Below, in pieces: positions 17,624 to 20,310 of a DNA stretch of 64,000 nucleotides. Below the pieces are notes generated by a model. The model had not been told where the DNA came from. It did no database searches and worked only from the letters and a program-made list of their open reading frames with translations. The stretch spans positions 62,001 through 126,000 of the forward strand of contig NZ_FOQM01000021.1 in assembly GCF_900113735.1 (NCBI RefSeq), given 5' to 3'. How positions within the stretch are numbered: the stretch's first letter is position 1; the number at the start of each line of letters is the position of its first letter. A program made the translations under genes and the position numbers. The stretch comes from Bradyrhizobium sp. Gha. GTDB taxonomy: Bacteria; Pseudomonadota; Alphaproteobacteria; Rhizobiales; Xanthobacteraceae.

Positions 17624-17697
17624 TGGAGGCCACGACCAGAATTGAACTGGTGTACACGGTTTTGCAGACCGTTGCGTAACCACTCCGCCACGTGGCC
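17624..17697 (-). tRNA. tRNA-Cys (GCA)
   Basis: Full cloverleaf on the minus strand. The acceptor stem is GGCCACG/CGTGGCC with discriminator T and an encoded CCA at 17624-17626. The anticodon stem is ACGGT/ACCGT with loop CTGCAAA (anticodon GCA at 17663-17665). The T arm is CCAG/CTGG with loop TTCAATT. Confidence 0.95.
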
Positions 17698-18252: not shown

Positions 18253-18516
18253 ATGAAGGCGAGGTTTTTGCGGTCTGCAGGTGTGAGAAGCCGGGCGCGT
18301 CGTGCCTCGACCGTTGGGCTGTTCCTGACACTGTTTGCCAGCACCGCCCAGGCACAGCAGGGCACGCCGGAGCAGCGGCGGGCTTGCACCCCCGACGTCT
18401 ACCGGCTCTGCGCCGGCGAAATCCCGAACGTGCGTGCCATCACGGCCTGTCTGCGGCGCAACCGCTCGAGCTTAAGCGAAGCTTGCCGCGCCGTGTTCGA
18501 CCAGGCCGGCGGTTGA
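18253..18516 (+). CDS. small secreted protein with a four-cysteine repeat
   Basis: 87-aa precursor with a basic N-terminus and a hydrophobic signal peptide, predicted cleavage after AQA at residue 34. The mature part has four cysteines (45, 53, 66, 78) spaced C-x7-C-x12-C-x11-C in the context TPDVYRLCAGEIPN and ITACLRRN. This resembles a single GLG1-type cysteine-rich repeat found in many small periplasmic proteins of rhizobia; function unknown. A GGGAG ribosome binding site precedes the ATG. A CRP-type palindrome is centred about 87 nt upstream. Confidence 0.7.
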   Translation: MKARFLRSAGVRSRARRASTVGLFLTLFASTAQAQQGTPEQRRACTPDVYRLCAGEIPNVRAITACLRRNRSSLSEACRAVFDQAGG

Positions 18517-18739: not shown

Positions 18740-19882
18740 CTAGCGCTTGCCGAACCACTCCTCGTAGATCCGCTGGTAGATGTCGCGCTCGCGCAGCCCC
18801 AGAAGTGCTTCGTTGACCTGCTTGCGCAACGGACTGCCGGTCGGAAAGACGATGCCGTAATCTTCCCTGTGAAACACCTCGCCTACGATCCGTGCCGAAC
18901 TCTGGCCGTCGTGGGTCGTGTAGTAGAGCAGGGCGGGTGCATCGAACACGACCGCGTCGACCTGTTGCTTCAACAGGGCATTATAGAGGTCGTCGACTTT
19001 CTCGAACTCGACCATGTGAGCACTGACCTCGTTCAGATAGGCTGTCGCCGTGCTTCCTCGGGTCGTGCCGACGGTCTTGCCGACGAGATCCTGCGGACCG
19101 TTGATCGGGCCCCTGATCTGCTGGACCGTGAGTGAAGCGGTCAGCTGCGCCGTATAGAAGGCGACGAAGACCACGCCGGTGAACATCCACAGCACGGCGA
19201 CTATCCGCGCCATCCAGTGCCGGGGCATCTGGTCGGCCTGAGTGGCCAACGTGCCCGCAGCCCAAAACATCGCATGGAAGATTCCCGGGAAATATTTCCG
19301 GGTTGGAATGATTCCGCTGTGATGCGTTCGCTCGACCAGGAACATCAGATGAGCCGGCACGAGGATCAGCAGAAGCGCAATGCCGAGCCACACCAGCAGG
19401 GTCCGTGAGACGAACAGTTGCATCAACTCGCGCAACGGATTGGCTTCGACATTGACGGCCGTGCCACGCACCAGAATTTGCAAACCCGAGTTCATGATCG
19501 GCAGAGAGAAGTCGAATTTGTCCTCCCGCTCCGACGTGATCGAGATGGCCGCGATGGCGAGATCGGCCCGTCCACTTCCCACGGCGTCAAGCAATTCGCT
19601 CACATCGGGCAACACGAGGTATTCGGTCTCGCGGTTCAGTCGTTGGCCGATGCTGTTCCAGAGCTCGATACTGAAGCCGCTCAGCGTGCCGTTCTTCTCG
19701 ACGACCATGGGCGGCACTATTCGGGTCGCCACCCGGAGCTTGGCAGTCTCGGCTTGAGCCGCGGACCAGGTCAGGCAGAACAGCAGTGCCAACGCCAGCC
19801 CTCGGGCGGCCTCGGCCGCGATCGCCCAAGGCGGTCGAGCGGCTCGAGCGCGAGAGCTGGTCGCCGGTTGCGGACGAGTCAT
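18740..19882 (-). CDS. ionotropic glutamate receptor-like ligand-gated channel (prokaryotic iGluR / GluR0 type)
   Basis: 380-aa membrane protein. A signal peptide ends near residue 45. The first half of a family-3 solute-binding domain (about 47-145) contains Arg119 in SITSEREDKFDFS, the position that normally binds the ligand alpha-carboxylate. Then come M1 (about 160-183), a re-entrant pore loop (about 199-220) and M2 (about 227-253) ending in FYTAQLTASLTV, comparable to SYTANLAAF of animal receptors. The second binding-domain half (about 260-380) has Asp314 in VVFDAPALLYY. The pore loop reads WAAGTLATQADQMP and lacks the K+ filter TVGYG of GluR0. The start was set at ATG 19882; the frame is open to 20005 but without signal-peptide logic. 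Ion selectivity and ligand are unknown. Confidence 0.78.
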   Translation of the reverse strand: MTRPQPATSSRARAARPPWAIAAEAARGLALALLFCLTWSAAQAETAKLRVATRIVPPMVVEKNGTLSGFSIELWNSIGQRLNRETEYLVLPDVSELLDAVGSGRADLAIAAISITSEREDKFDFSLPIMNSGLQILVRGTAVNVEANPLRELMQLFVSRTLLVWLGIALLLILVPAHLMFLVERTHHSGIIPTRKYFPGIFHAMFWAAGTLATQADQMPRHWMARIVAVLWMFTGVVFVAFYTAQLTASLTVQQIRGPINGPQDLVGKTVGTTRGSTATAYLNEVSAHMVEFEKVDDLYNALLKQQVDAVVFDAPALLYYTTHDGQSSARIVGEVFHREDYGIVFPTGSPLRKQVNEALLGLRERDIYQRIYEEWFGKR

Positions 19883-20235: not shown

Positions 20236-20310
20236 TCCTCGGTAGCTCAGCGGTAGAGCATCCGACTGTTAATCGGATGGTCGCTGGTTCGAATCCAGCC
20301 CGGGGAGCCA
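20236..20310 (+). tRNA. tRNA-Asn (GTT)
   Basis: Cloverleaf with acceptor stem TCCTCGG/CCGGGGA (one G-T wobble), discriminator G and encoded CCA at 20308-20310. The anticodon stem is CCGA/TCGG with loop CTGTTAA (anticodon GTT). The T arm contains GGTTCGAATCC. Confidence 0.96.

Follow-up and report, generated by a model that had tools for sequence, protein, structure and literature searches.

The 64,000-nucleotide stretch of Bradyrhizobium DNA analysed here (the window) encodes what is probably a glutamate-gated cation channel of the NpGluR0, or Group 2, kind, built around a two-helix M1-P-M2 pore that would not be selective for K+. The receptor has the architecture of these proteins and is homologous to them, its binding domain matches in fold, and its pore is under strict purifying selection. 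The features to which we refer are as follows.

18740–19882, minus strand: complete coding sequence of a prokaryotic ionotropic glutamate receptor (NpGluR0/Group 2 type), 380 residues.
19748–19882, minus strand: signal-like N-terminal region, residues 1–45 (hydrophobic at 20–38, AQA before ET, helix 19–39 in the model).
19463–19747, minus strand: ligand-binding half S1, residues 46–140 (Pfam SBP_bac_3; aligned with 2pyy over 49–140).
19526–19528, minus strand: Arg119, the expected contact of the ligand alpha-carboxylate, present in 76/76 clade rows and 21/21 K+-type rows.
19331–19405, minus strand: M1 helix, residues 160–184 (AlphaFold2; hydropathy peak 162–180).
19247–19294, minus strand: pore helix, residues 197–212 (AlphaFold2).
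19223–19252, minus strand: filter TLATQADQMP, residues 211–220, in place of TVGYGD (P-loop 200–222 invariant in 18 orthologues).
19112–19216, minus strand: M2 helix, equivalent to eukaryotic M3, residues 223–257 (AlphaFold2; dN/dS 0.020 over 223–256).
19124–19159, minus strand: gate-like motif FYTAQLTASLTV, residues 242–253, aligned with SSYTANLAAFLTV of the GluA chains.
18743–19111, minus strand: ligand-binding half S2, residues 258–380 (Pfam; aligned with 2pyy over 257–378).
18941–18943, minus strand: Asp314, the expected contact of the ligand alpha-amino group, present in 64/76 clade rows and 19/21 K+-type rows.
18253–18516, plus strand: small open reading frame of 87 residues facing the receptor gene in convergent orientation; it opens with a signal-like stretch and contains several cysteines.
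17624–17697, minus strand: tRNA-Cys, flanking the receptor-bearing stretch.
20236–20310, plus strand: tRNA-Asn, flanking the receptor-bearing stretch.

The reading frame runs on the minus strand from an ATG at 19882 to a stop at 18740–18742 and gives 380 residues; a sequence-only reading of the same DNA had placed a receptor gene exactly there. That reading had also proposed the GluR0 layout S1-M1-P-M2-S2, which is borne out by the translation, by Pfam and by an AlphaFold2 model. The best Pfam family was SBP_bac_3 (4.7e-26), whose 132-position profile matched a single stretch spanning residues 49–379, i.e. around the insert; Lig_chan matched residues 164–270 above its cut-off (9.3e-19), Lig_chan-Glu_bd scored 1e-8, and Ion_trans_2 stayed below its cut-off (0.0022; 18.3 versus 22.5 bits). 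Besides the N-terminal hydrophobic stretch (20–38), hydropathy peaks at 162–180 and 227–245. The N-terminus is likely to be a signal peptide, as predicted from this stretch and the AQA site, and residues 1–45 are the fastest-evolving part of the receptor (dN/dS 0.62). The M1–M2 loop carries four Lys or Arg residues and one acidic residue, as would be expected if the loop is cytoplasmic, and consistent with the measured topology of GluR0 described in PMC13099474. Orthologues could be aligned from residue 1 to 380, and since the sequence is 74–90% conserved in 17 further Bradyrhizobium genomes, the receptor is not a chance reading frame.

The full-length AlphaFold2 monomer (71 rows) had a pLDDT of 81.9 and a pTM of 0.61, with an extended stretch between the pore helix and M2. 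M1 (160–184), the pore helix (197–212) and M2 (223–257) were all formed, the arrangement for which the sequence-only reading had suggested looking in a predicted structure. By sequence, the closest solved relative was the NpGluR0 binding core, 2pyy (E 2.3e-59); other solved relatives were glutamine-binding proteins, GluR0 (1ii5, 9.9e-23) and, at about 1e-21 or weaker, kainate and AMPA receptors of animals. When the full model was compared with the PDB by Foldseek, 2pyy again came first among the best 50 rows, followed by AMPA receptors aligned over 368–384 columns; in these rows the alignment with AMPA receptors spans both the ligand-binding and the transmembrane domains, with a top TMq of 0.63 (7qhb_B). 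VIA-align gave a Z score of 33.1 for 2pyy_B, which has L-glutamate bound (rmsd 1.1 Å over 213 residues, 49% identity), 29.4 for 1ii5 (30% identity) and 27.1 for the kainate receptor GluR5.

The M1-P-M2 segment modelled alone (pLDDT 79.8) was less discriminating. With Foldseek, the transmembrane domains of AMPA receptors ranked first, albeit weakly (E 1.3e-3; no match reached 0.001), and a KcsA mutant ranked 31st. With VIA-align, tetrameric P-loop channels (MlotiK1, Kv, KirBac, NaK, SthK) appeared at Z 11–12, and the best 50 rows, made up of K+, CNG and NaK channels, held no glutamate receptor, an absence that carries no weight. On these models, fold comparison of the pore does not separate the glutamate receptor type from the K+ channel type.

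The pore loop reads W207-AAGTLATQADQM-P220. As the sequence-only reading had stated, TVGYGD is lost: the loop holds no TVGYG-type filter and has TLATQADQMP instead. Among 18 Bradyrhizobium orthologues, window included, none of the 23 residues of the P-loop (200–222) is variable (dN/dS 0.000, dS 0.74). Elsewhere in the protein, dN/dS is 0.020 for M2, 0.163 for the linker and M1, 0.223 for residues 185–199, 0.130 for S1 and 0.137 for S2. This invariance rules out a decayed pore. Because the pore is so strictly preserved, it is very likely functional, and we predict on the same ground that the receptor very likely works; note that purifying selection would equally act on a pore serving assembly alone, and that a structural need for this exact loop is possible.

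Filters were read from 127 aligned rows, in which the window's own copy is counted twice. The Gln-filter clade comprises 76 rows (the 123 tree rows minus 21 of K+ type and 26 outside), 18 of which are the Bradyrhizobium orthologues, window included. The commonest filter in the clade is T-L-[A/V/L..]-T-Q-[A/G/S]-[D/E]-x-x-P: Gln is found at 215 in 72 of the 76 rows, an acid at 217 in 60 and Pro at 220 in 71, while all 21 K+-type relatives have Tyr, Asp and Pro at these three positions. By hand count, Gly and Pro lie 20 steps apart in the window protein, against 21 in GluA and 22 in the K+-type L123. Sixteen of the 76 clade rows lack the filter acid, four lack the Gln and 12 lack Asp314, so that function is unlikely to be uniform across the clade. 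Labels assigned by filter pattern are imperfect: L013 (TQGETSRK), which falls outside the clade, was labelled TQ, whereas L087 (CLSTQAETMP), a clade member, was labelled 'other'.

Several filters depart from this pattern. Three receptors of Mycobacteriaceae inside the clade (L105, L114, L121) have filters like SLVGKNATTA, with neither Gln215 nor the acid at 217. Other alphaproteobacterial receptors (L138, L140, L143, L141) carry NGGFEERMP or MGGFEKEVP, which have the length of the K+ filter and contain acids. Distant paralogues in other genomes of the genus (about 29–33% identity) have very different filters within an otherwise K+-type group, namely TQAGAAQNAP or TQAGAAHNAP (L014, L036, L038, L039, L041, L042, L136, L146) and TQRADAS-like sequences (L033, L034, L035, L037); they probably represent separate losses of the K+ filter.

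To compare pores by sequence profile, we used a Gln-filter profile made from 37 of 77 clade pore fragments (window included), sorted by tree and picked by hand for spread, and a K+-type profile made from all 21 K+-type bacterial receptor pores. Against the PDB, the best 60 of the 393 matches of the Gln-filter profile were all glutamate receptors, from 6.5e-13 onward, titled GluA1, 2 or 4, chimeras thereof, or plain 'Glutamate receptor'. By contrast, among the best 60 of the 587 matches of the K+-type profile (5.5e-16 onward), 59 bore titles of K+ channels or chimeras, the one exception being titled 'Lmo2059 protein'. The Gln-filter and K+-type profiles gave, respectively, 53.4 versus 43.7 bits for GluA1, 49.2 versus 40.7 for GluA4 and 39.1 versus 33.0 for the plant receptor GLR3.4, as opposed to 14.2 versus 60.5 for Kv1.3; of 800 shuffled segments, the 769 and 781 reported peaked at 7.2 and 9.4 bits. 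By sequence profile, the pore module is thus of the ionotropic glutamate receptor type rather than of the K+ channel type. The gaps of about 6–10 bits indicate a lean toward the eukaryotic receptor pores, to be read with the different depths of the two profiles.

The bacterial tree was built by a quick search from 102 of the 123 rows (21 near-copies dropped) with the filter columns removed. One group of 61 rows has an SH-aLRT of 99 and is starred, stars on a quick tree meriting less trust. It contains 52 of the 53 TQ-labelled rows, the remaining one being the mislabelled L013. K+-type rows adjoin the clade, and a second K+-type group lies at a distance; the K+ label changes four times on the tree versus a mean of 19.4 after shuffling. 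Additional non-K+ filters (NGGFEERMP, TQAGAAQNAP, GHPHHKAP) arise elsewhere in the tree, and some branches are long (L040 and others). The simplest history that fits would be one exchange of the K+ filter at the base of the clade and several others apart, a direction that we infer from an unrooted tree.

Trees of the pore including eukaryotes had 103–115 columns and three eukaryotic segments, one of them of 54 residues. With the filter columns kept, the K+-type rows grouped with 19 others and Kv1.3 (starred, 95), the eukaryotes being on the opposite side. The grouping 'TQ plus eukaryotes' gave p 0.029 in the AU test, with a set that omitted L106, L107 and L118, which sit inside the clade. Without the filter columns, and with seven more long or odd rows dropped, 'TQ plus 5 others plus eukaryotes' reached an SH-aLRT of 88 and was not starred; a tree with the bacterial clade alone on one side was 20 log units better than this free search. 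In a run with three constrained trees, thinned to 29 of the 57 clade rows and without Kv1.3, the one placing the eukaryotes between the clade and the rest scored best and the other two were kept (p-AU 0.233 and 0.402), the searches being short and the best tree also meeting the looser constraints. The profiles lean toward the suggestion of the sequence-only reading that the protein is intermediate between K+-type bacterial and eukaryotic receptors, and the constrained pore trees are compatible both with it and with its alternatives. The idea itself is already in print as the Group 2 hypothesis (PMC2950845).

Of the 22 prokaryotic proteins with this topology described by Ger et al. (2010), 12 carry a K+ filter and make up Group 1. 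The 10 of Group 2 have no recognised filter, are closer to human receptors than Group 1 is, and have a P region unlike that of any channel of known selectivity (PMC2950845). The same source calls Group 2 'putative' channels, notes that two of the 10 members have no signal peptide, and reports that their genes largely carry other annotations (PMC2950845). The protein studied here has binding halves flanking two transmembrane helices and a pore loop, lacks the K+-channel signature and retains R119 and D314; on its sequence, the gene is a member of this known kind, to which we add a sharper definition of the pore along with good evidence for its use. Whereas the 10 Group 2 proteins had few identical positions across the channel (2 of 120 columns; PMC2950845), the tree built here singles out one clade united by its Gln filter. 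In the literature surveyed, which left subscription papers mostly outside, we found neither a current from a Group 2 protein nor a Gln-filter signature.

NpGluR0 of Nostoc punctiforme, solved with L-glutamate bound (2pyy), has a binding domain 49% identical to that of the window protein, but belongs to the cyanobacterial branch of the clade. A search with its S2 half gave 10 related cyanobacterial loci in 10 of 195 genomes. The four nearest (L156, L157, L158 and L159; 93, 83, 80 and 78% identical in S2) have TLATQADEMP in three cases and TLGAQVDEMP in one; since its nearest relatives carry this filter or a slight variant, NpGluR0 is itself very likely a member of the Gln-filter clade, the filter being read in these relatives. 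In a BLAST search with the 2pyy halves, the top ten rows all had a Gln-type filter; L111 (TTGEYGDKT) was among the best 24, and the K+-type L115 was 57% identical in S2. GluR0 of Synechocystis PCC 6803 (slr1257; 1ii5) has the layout and binding-domain fold in common with the window protein, but conducts K+ through a Gly-Tyr-Gly signature (as described in PMC13099474), which is missing from the window protein, as is the TVGYG-type filter of Group 1 as a whole.

With the AMPA receptors GluA1 and GluA2, the P-loop aligns with a single one-residue insertion, that of the window protein being one residue shorter. The filter has a Gln and an acid in common with theirs, and the gate is of the SYTANLAAFLTV type; indeed, the motif FYTAQLTASLTV, which the sequence-only reading had likened to the animal gate, does lie at the end of M2 and aligns with theirs. 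Unlike AMPA receptors and eukaryotic receptors in general, the window protein has neither an amino-terminal domain nor an M4 after S2, its 380 residues ending with S2. The plant receptor GLR3.4 (7lzh) aligns without gaps over a 54-residue segment that begins where the pore helix ends and reaches the first part of S2, with 15 identities; it has SSYTASLTSILTI at the position of FYTAQLTASLTV, but its filter letters differ (STMFFSHREN), and we take it to carry both an amino-terminal domain and M4. From Thr211 to Arg226, the length equals that of GLR3.4. For this reason, the short loop no longer counts against a eukaryotic connection.

Both ligand-site residues named by the sequence-only reading, Arg119 and Asp314, are present under that numbering; the conserved Arg of S1 and Asp of S2 hold the ligand backbone through its alpha-carboxylate and alpha-amino groups, respectively, as stated in PMC2950845. 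Asp314 is replaced by G, S, E, P or A in 12 of the 76 clade rows, and the parts of the clade without Asp314 probably bind another ligand. Six rows (L086, L103, L097, L098, L092, L093) keep Arg119 with P, G or S at 314 and would probably accept a ligand that lacks the usual alpha-amino contact. R54, present in 54 of the 76 clade rows, aligns with Asp10 of glutamine-binding protein, which presumably contacts the ligand side chain; residues 276–278 (GST) fall at the side-chain site of animal receptors, where the Ser/Thr residues corresponding to S277 and T278 contact the ligand. R54 and GST would fit an acidic side chain. Since 2pyy, moreover, holds L-glutamate, this amino acid is the first guess and, by analogy, most likely the ligand.

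The window genome has one full-length copy of the gene; three more matches, at E 2.2e-18 to 9.5e-5, are each confined to a single binding half, in reading frames of 306 and 259 residues. At 1e-40, matches were found in 13 of 149 relatives and in 5 of 385 genomes drawn class-wide, the window genome included in both. Of 265 Bradyrhizobium genomes, 52 gave a match at E 1e-30: 18, window included, have a close orthologue (74–100% identity), one more has a 49% relative and the other 33 have only weaker paralogues. In a phylum-wide draw, Lig_chan was above its cut-off in 22 of 398 genomes and at E 0.001 in 77, versus none of 14 control genomes. All five sub-cut-off matches examined in reading frames of 221–260 residues (L148, L149, L150, L153, L155) were TVGYGD K+ channels and not receptors; another (L151) was a receptor with a different filter. 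A scan of one genome per species over 84,980 species gave 249 candidate stretches, of which 205 encode relatives, and the best 80 yielded 79 named loci. Their sources, many of which are metagenome bins, include alpha- and betaproteobacteria, cyanobacteria, Mycobacteriaceae and Chloroflexota. Two of the loci (L092, L093) carry a near-identical receptor in bins named Paceibacterota and Verrucomicrobia; the Paceibacterota label probably stems from an error in binning.

The neighbours of the gene are the convergent small reading frame, tRNAs, and DTW, PCMT and efflux genes; no operon or evident partner gene is seen at the locus. This setting is conserved in all five 88–90% orthologues with long flanks (L047, L048, L050, L051, L077; the flank of L049 is too short to be informative), but in none of the four 78–83% orthologues (L052–L055), nor in the 48–49% relative L086. 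The 87-residue reading frame is likewise found near the receptor in the 88–90% orthologues with long flanks and matches no Pfam family at 0.001.

The main rival is a periplasmic amino-acid sensor that conducts nothing, in which the pore would be an anchor or tetramerisation unit and the signal would pass to a partner protein. The lack of a K+ filter, or of any recognised filter, speaks for it, as do clade members whose filters are further altered (e.g. SLVGKNATTA, ALVNQVMCLP). However, the would-be anchor, M1 with its linker, is less constrained (dN/dS 0.163) than the P-loop, the most conserved part of the protein (0/23 sites variable); Pfam reveals no further domain, and no evident partner is encoded nearby, in a setting that differs in the 78–83% orthologues. 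This alternative, which the sequence-only reading had left beside the channel, is weakened by the invariance of the P-loop among the 18 orthologues, and we regard it as unlikely.

The chances that the receptor selects K+ as GluR0 does, via another filter geometry, seem slim to us. K+-type relatives do flank the NpGluR0 clade in the tree and the pore modelled alone is similar to K+ and NaK channels, but GYG is absent from a filter two residues shorter, with Gln where all 21 K+-type rows have Tyr, Ion_trans_2 is under its cut-off, and Kv1.3 matches the Gln-filter profile far less well than the K+-type one (14.2 versus 60.5 bits). It is most improbable that the gene encodes an ordinary binding protein of an ABC transporter into which a hydrophobic segment was inserted by chance. 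SBP_bac_3 is indeed its top Pfam family, and its 14 NCBIfam matches are mostly to ABC binding-protein models; yet all 14 are far under their cut-offs (the best at 133 versus 303 bits), Lig_chan is above its own, the transmembrane insert contains the most conserved part of the protein, and none of the six neighbouring reading frames scanned matched an ABC family. Together these observations contradict it.

In the glutamate-gated channel that we favour, the receptor would sit in the inner membrane with its binding domain facing the periplasm, where an L-amino acid, most likely L-glutamate, would bind between S1 and S2. Closure of this clamshell would pull on the M2 helices, crossing at FYTAQLTASLTV, and the pore of a putative tetramer would open. 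Cations would then flow (we infer both conduction and its direction) through a filter that has two residues fewer than the K+ filter, in which rings of Gln215 and Asp217 would replace Tyr-Gly-Asp; because of these rings and of the shorter filter, the flow is probably not K+-selective. A wider proposal, which we put forward as speculative and rather doubtful, is that the NpGluR0 clade is a third receptor pore type of single origin. A K+-filter receptor would have swapped GYG for a Gln-ring plus acid-ring filter shorter by two residues, giving natural two-helix, glutamate-gated, non-selective bacterial cation channels; among living pores, theirs would be the closest kin of those in animal and plant receptors.

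How the non-selective pore of brain and plant receptors arose from a K+-channel pore is the question that a Gln-filter receptor addresses. Here is a minimal, conserved one with K+-filter relatives flanking it in the tree, a small system in which exchanging some ten residues could probe the change in selectivity, and Group 2 genes merit electrophysiology.
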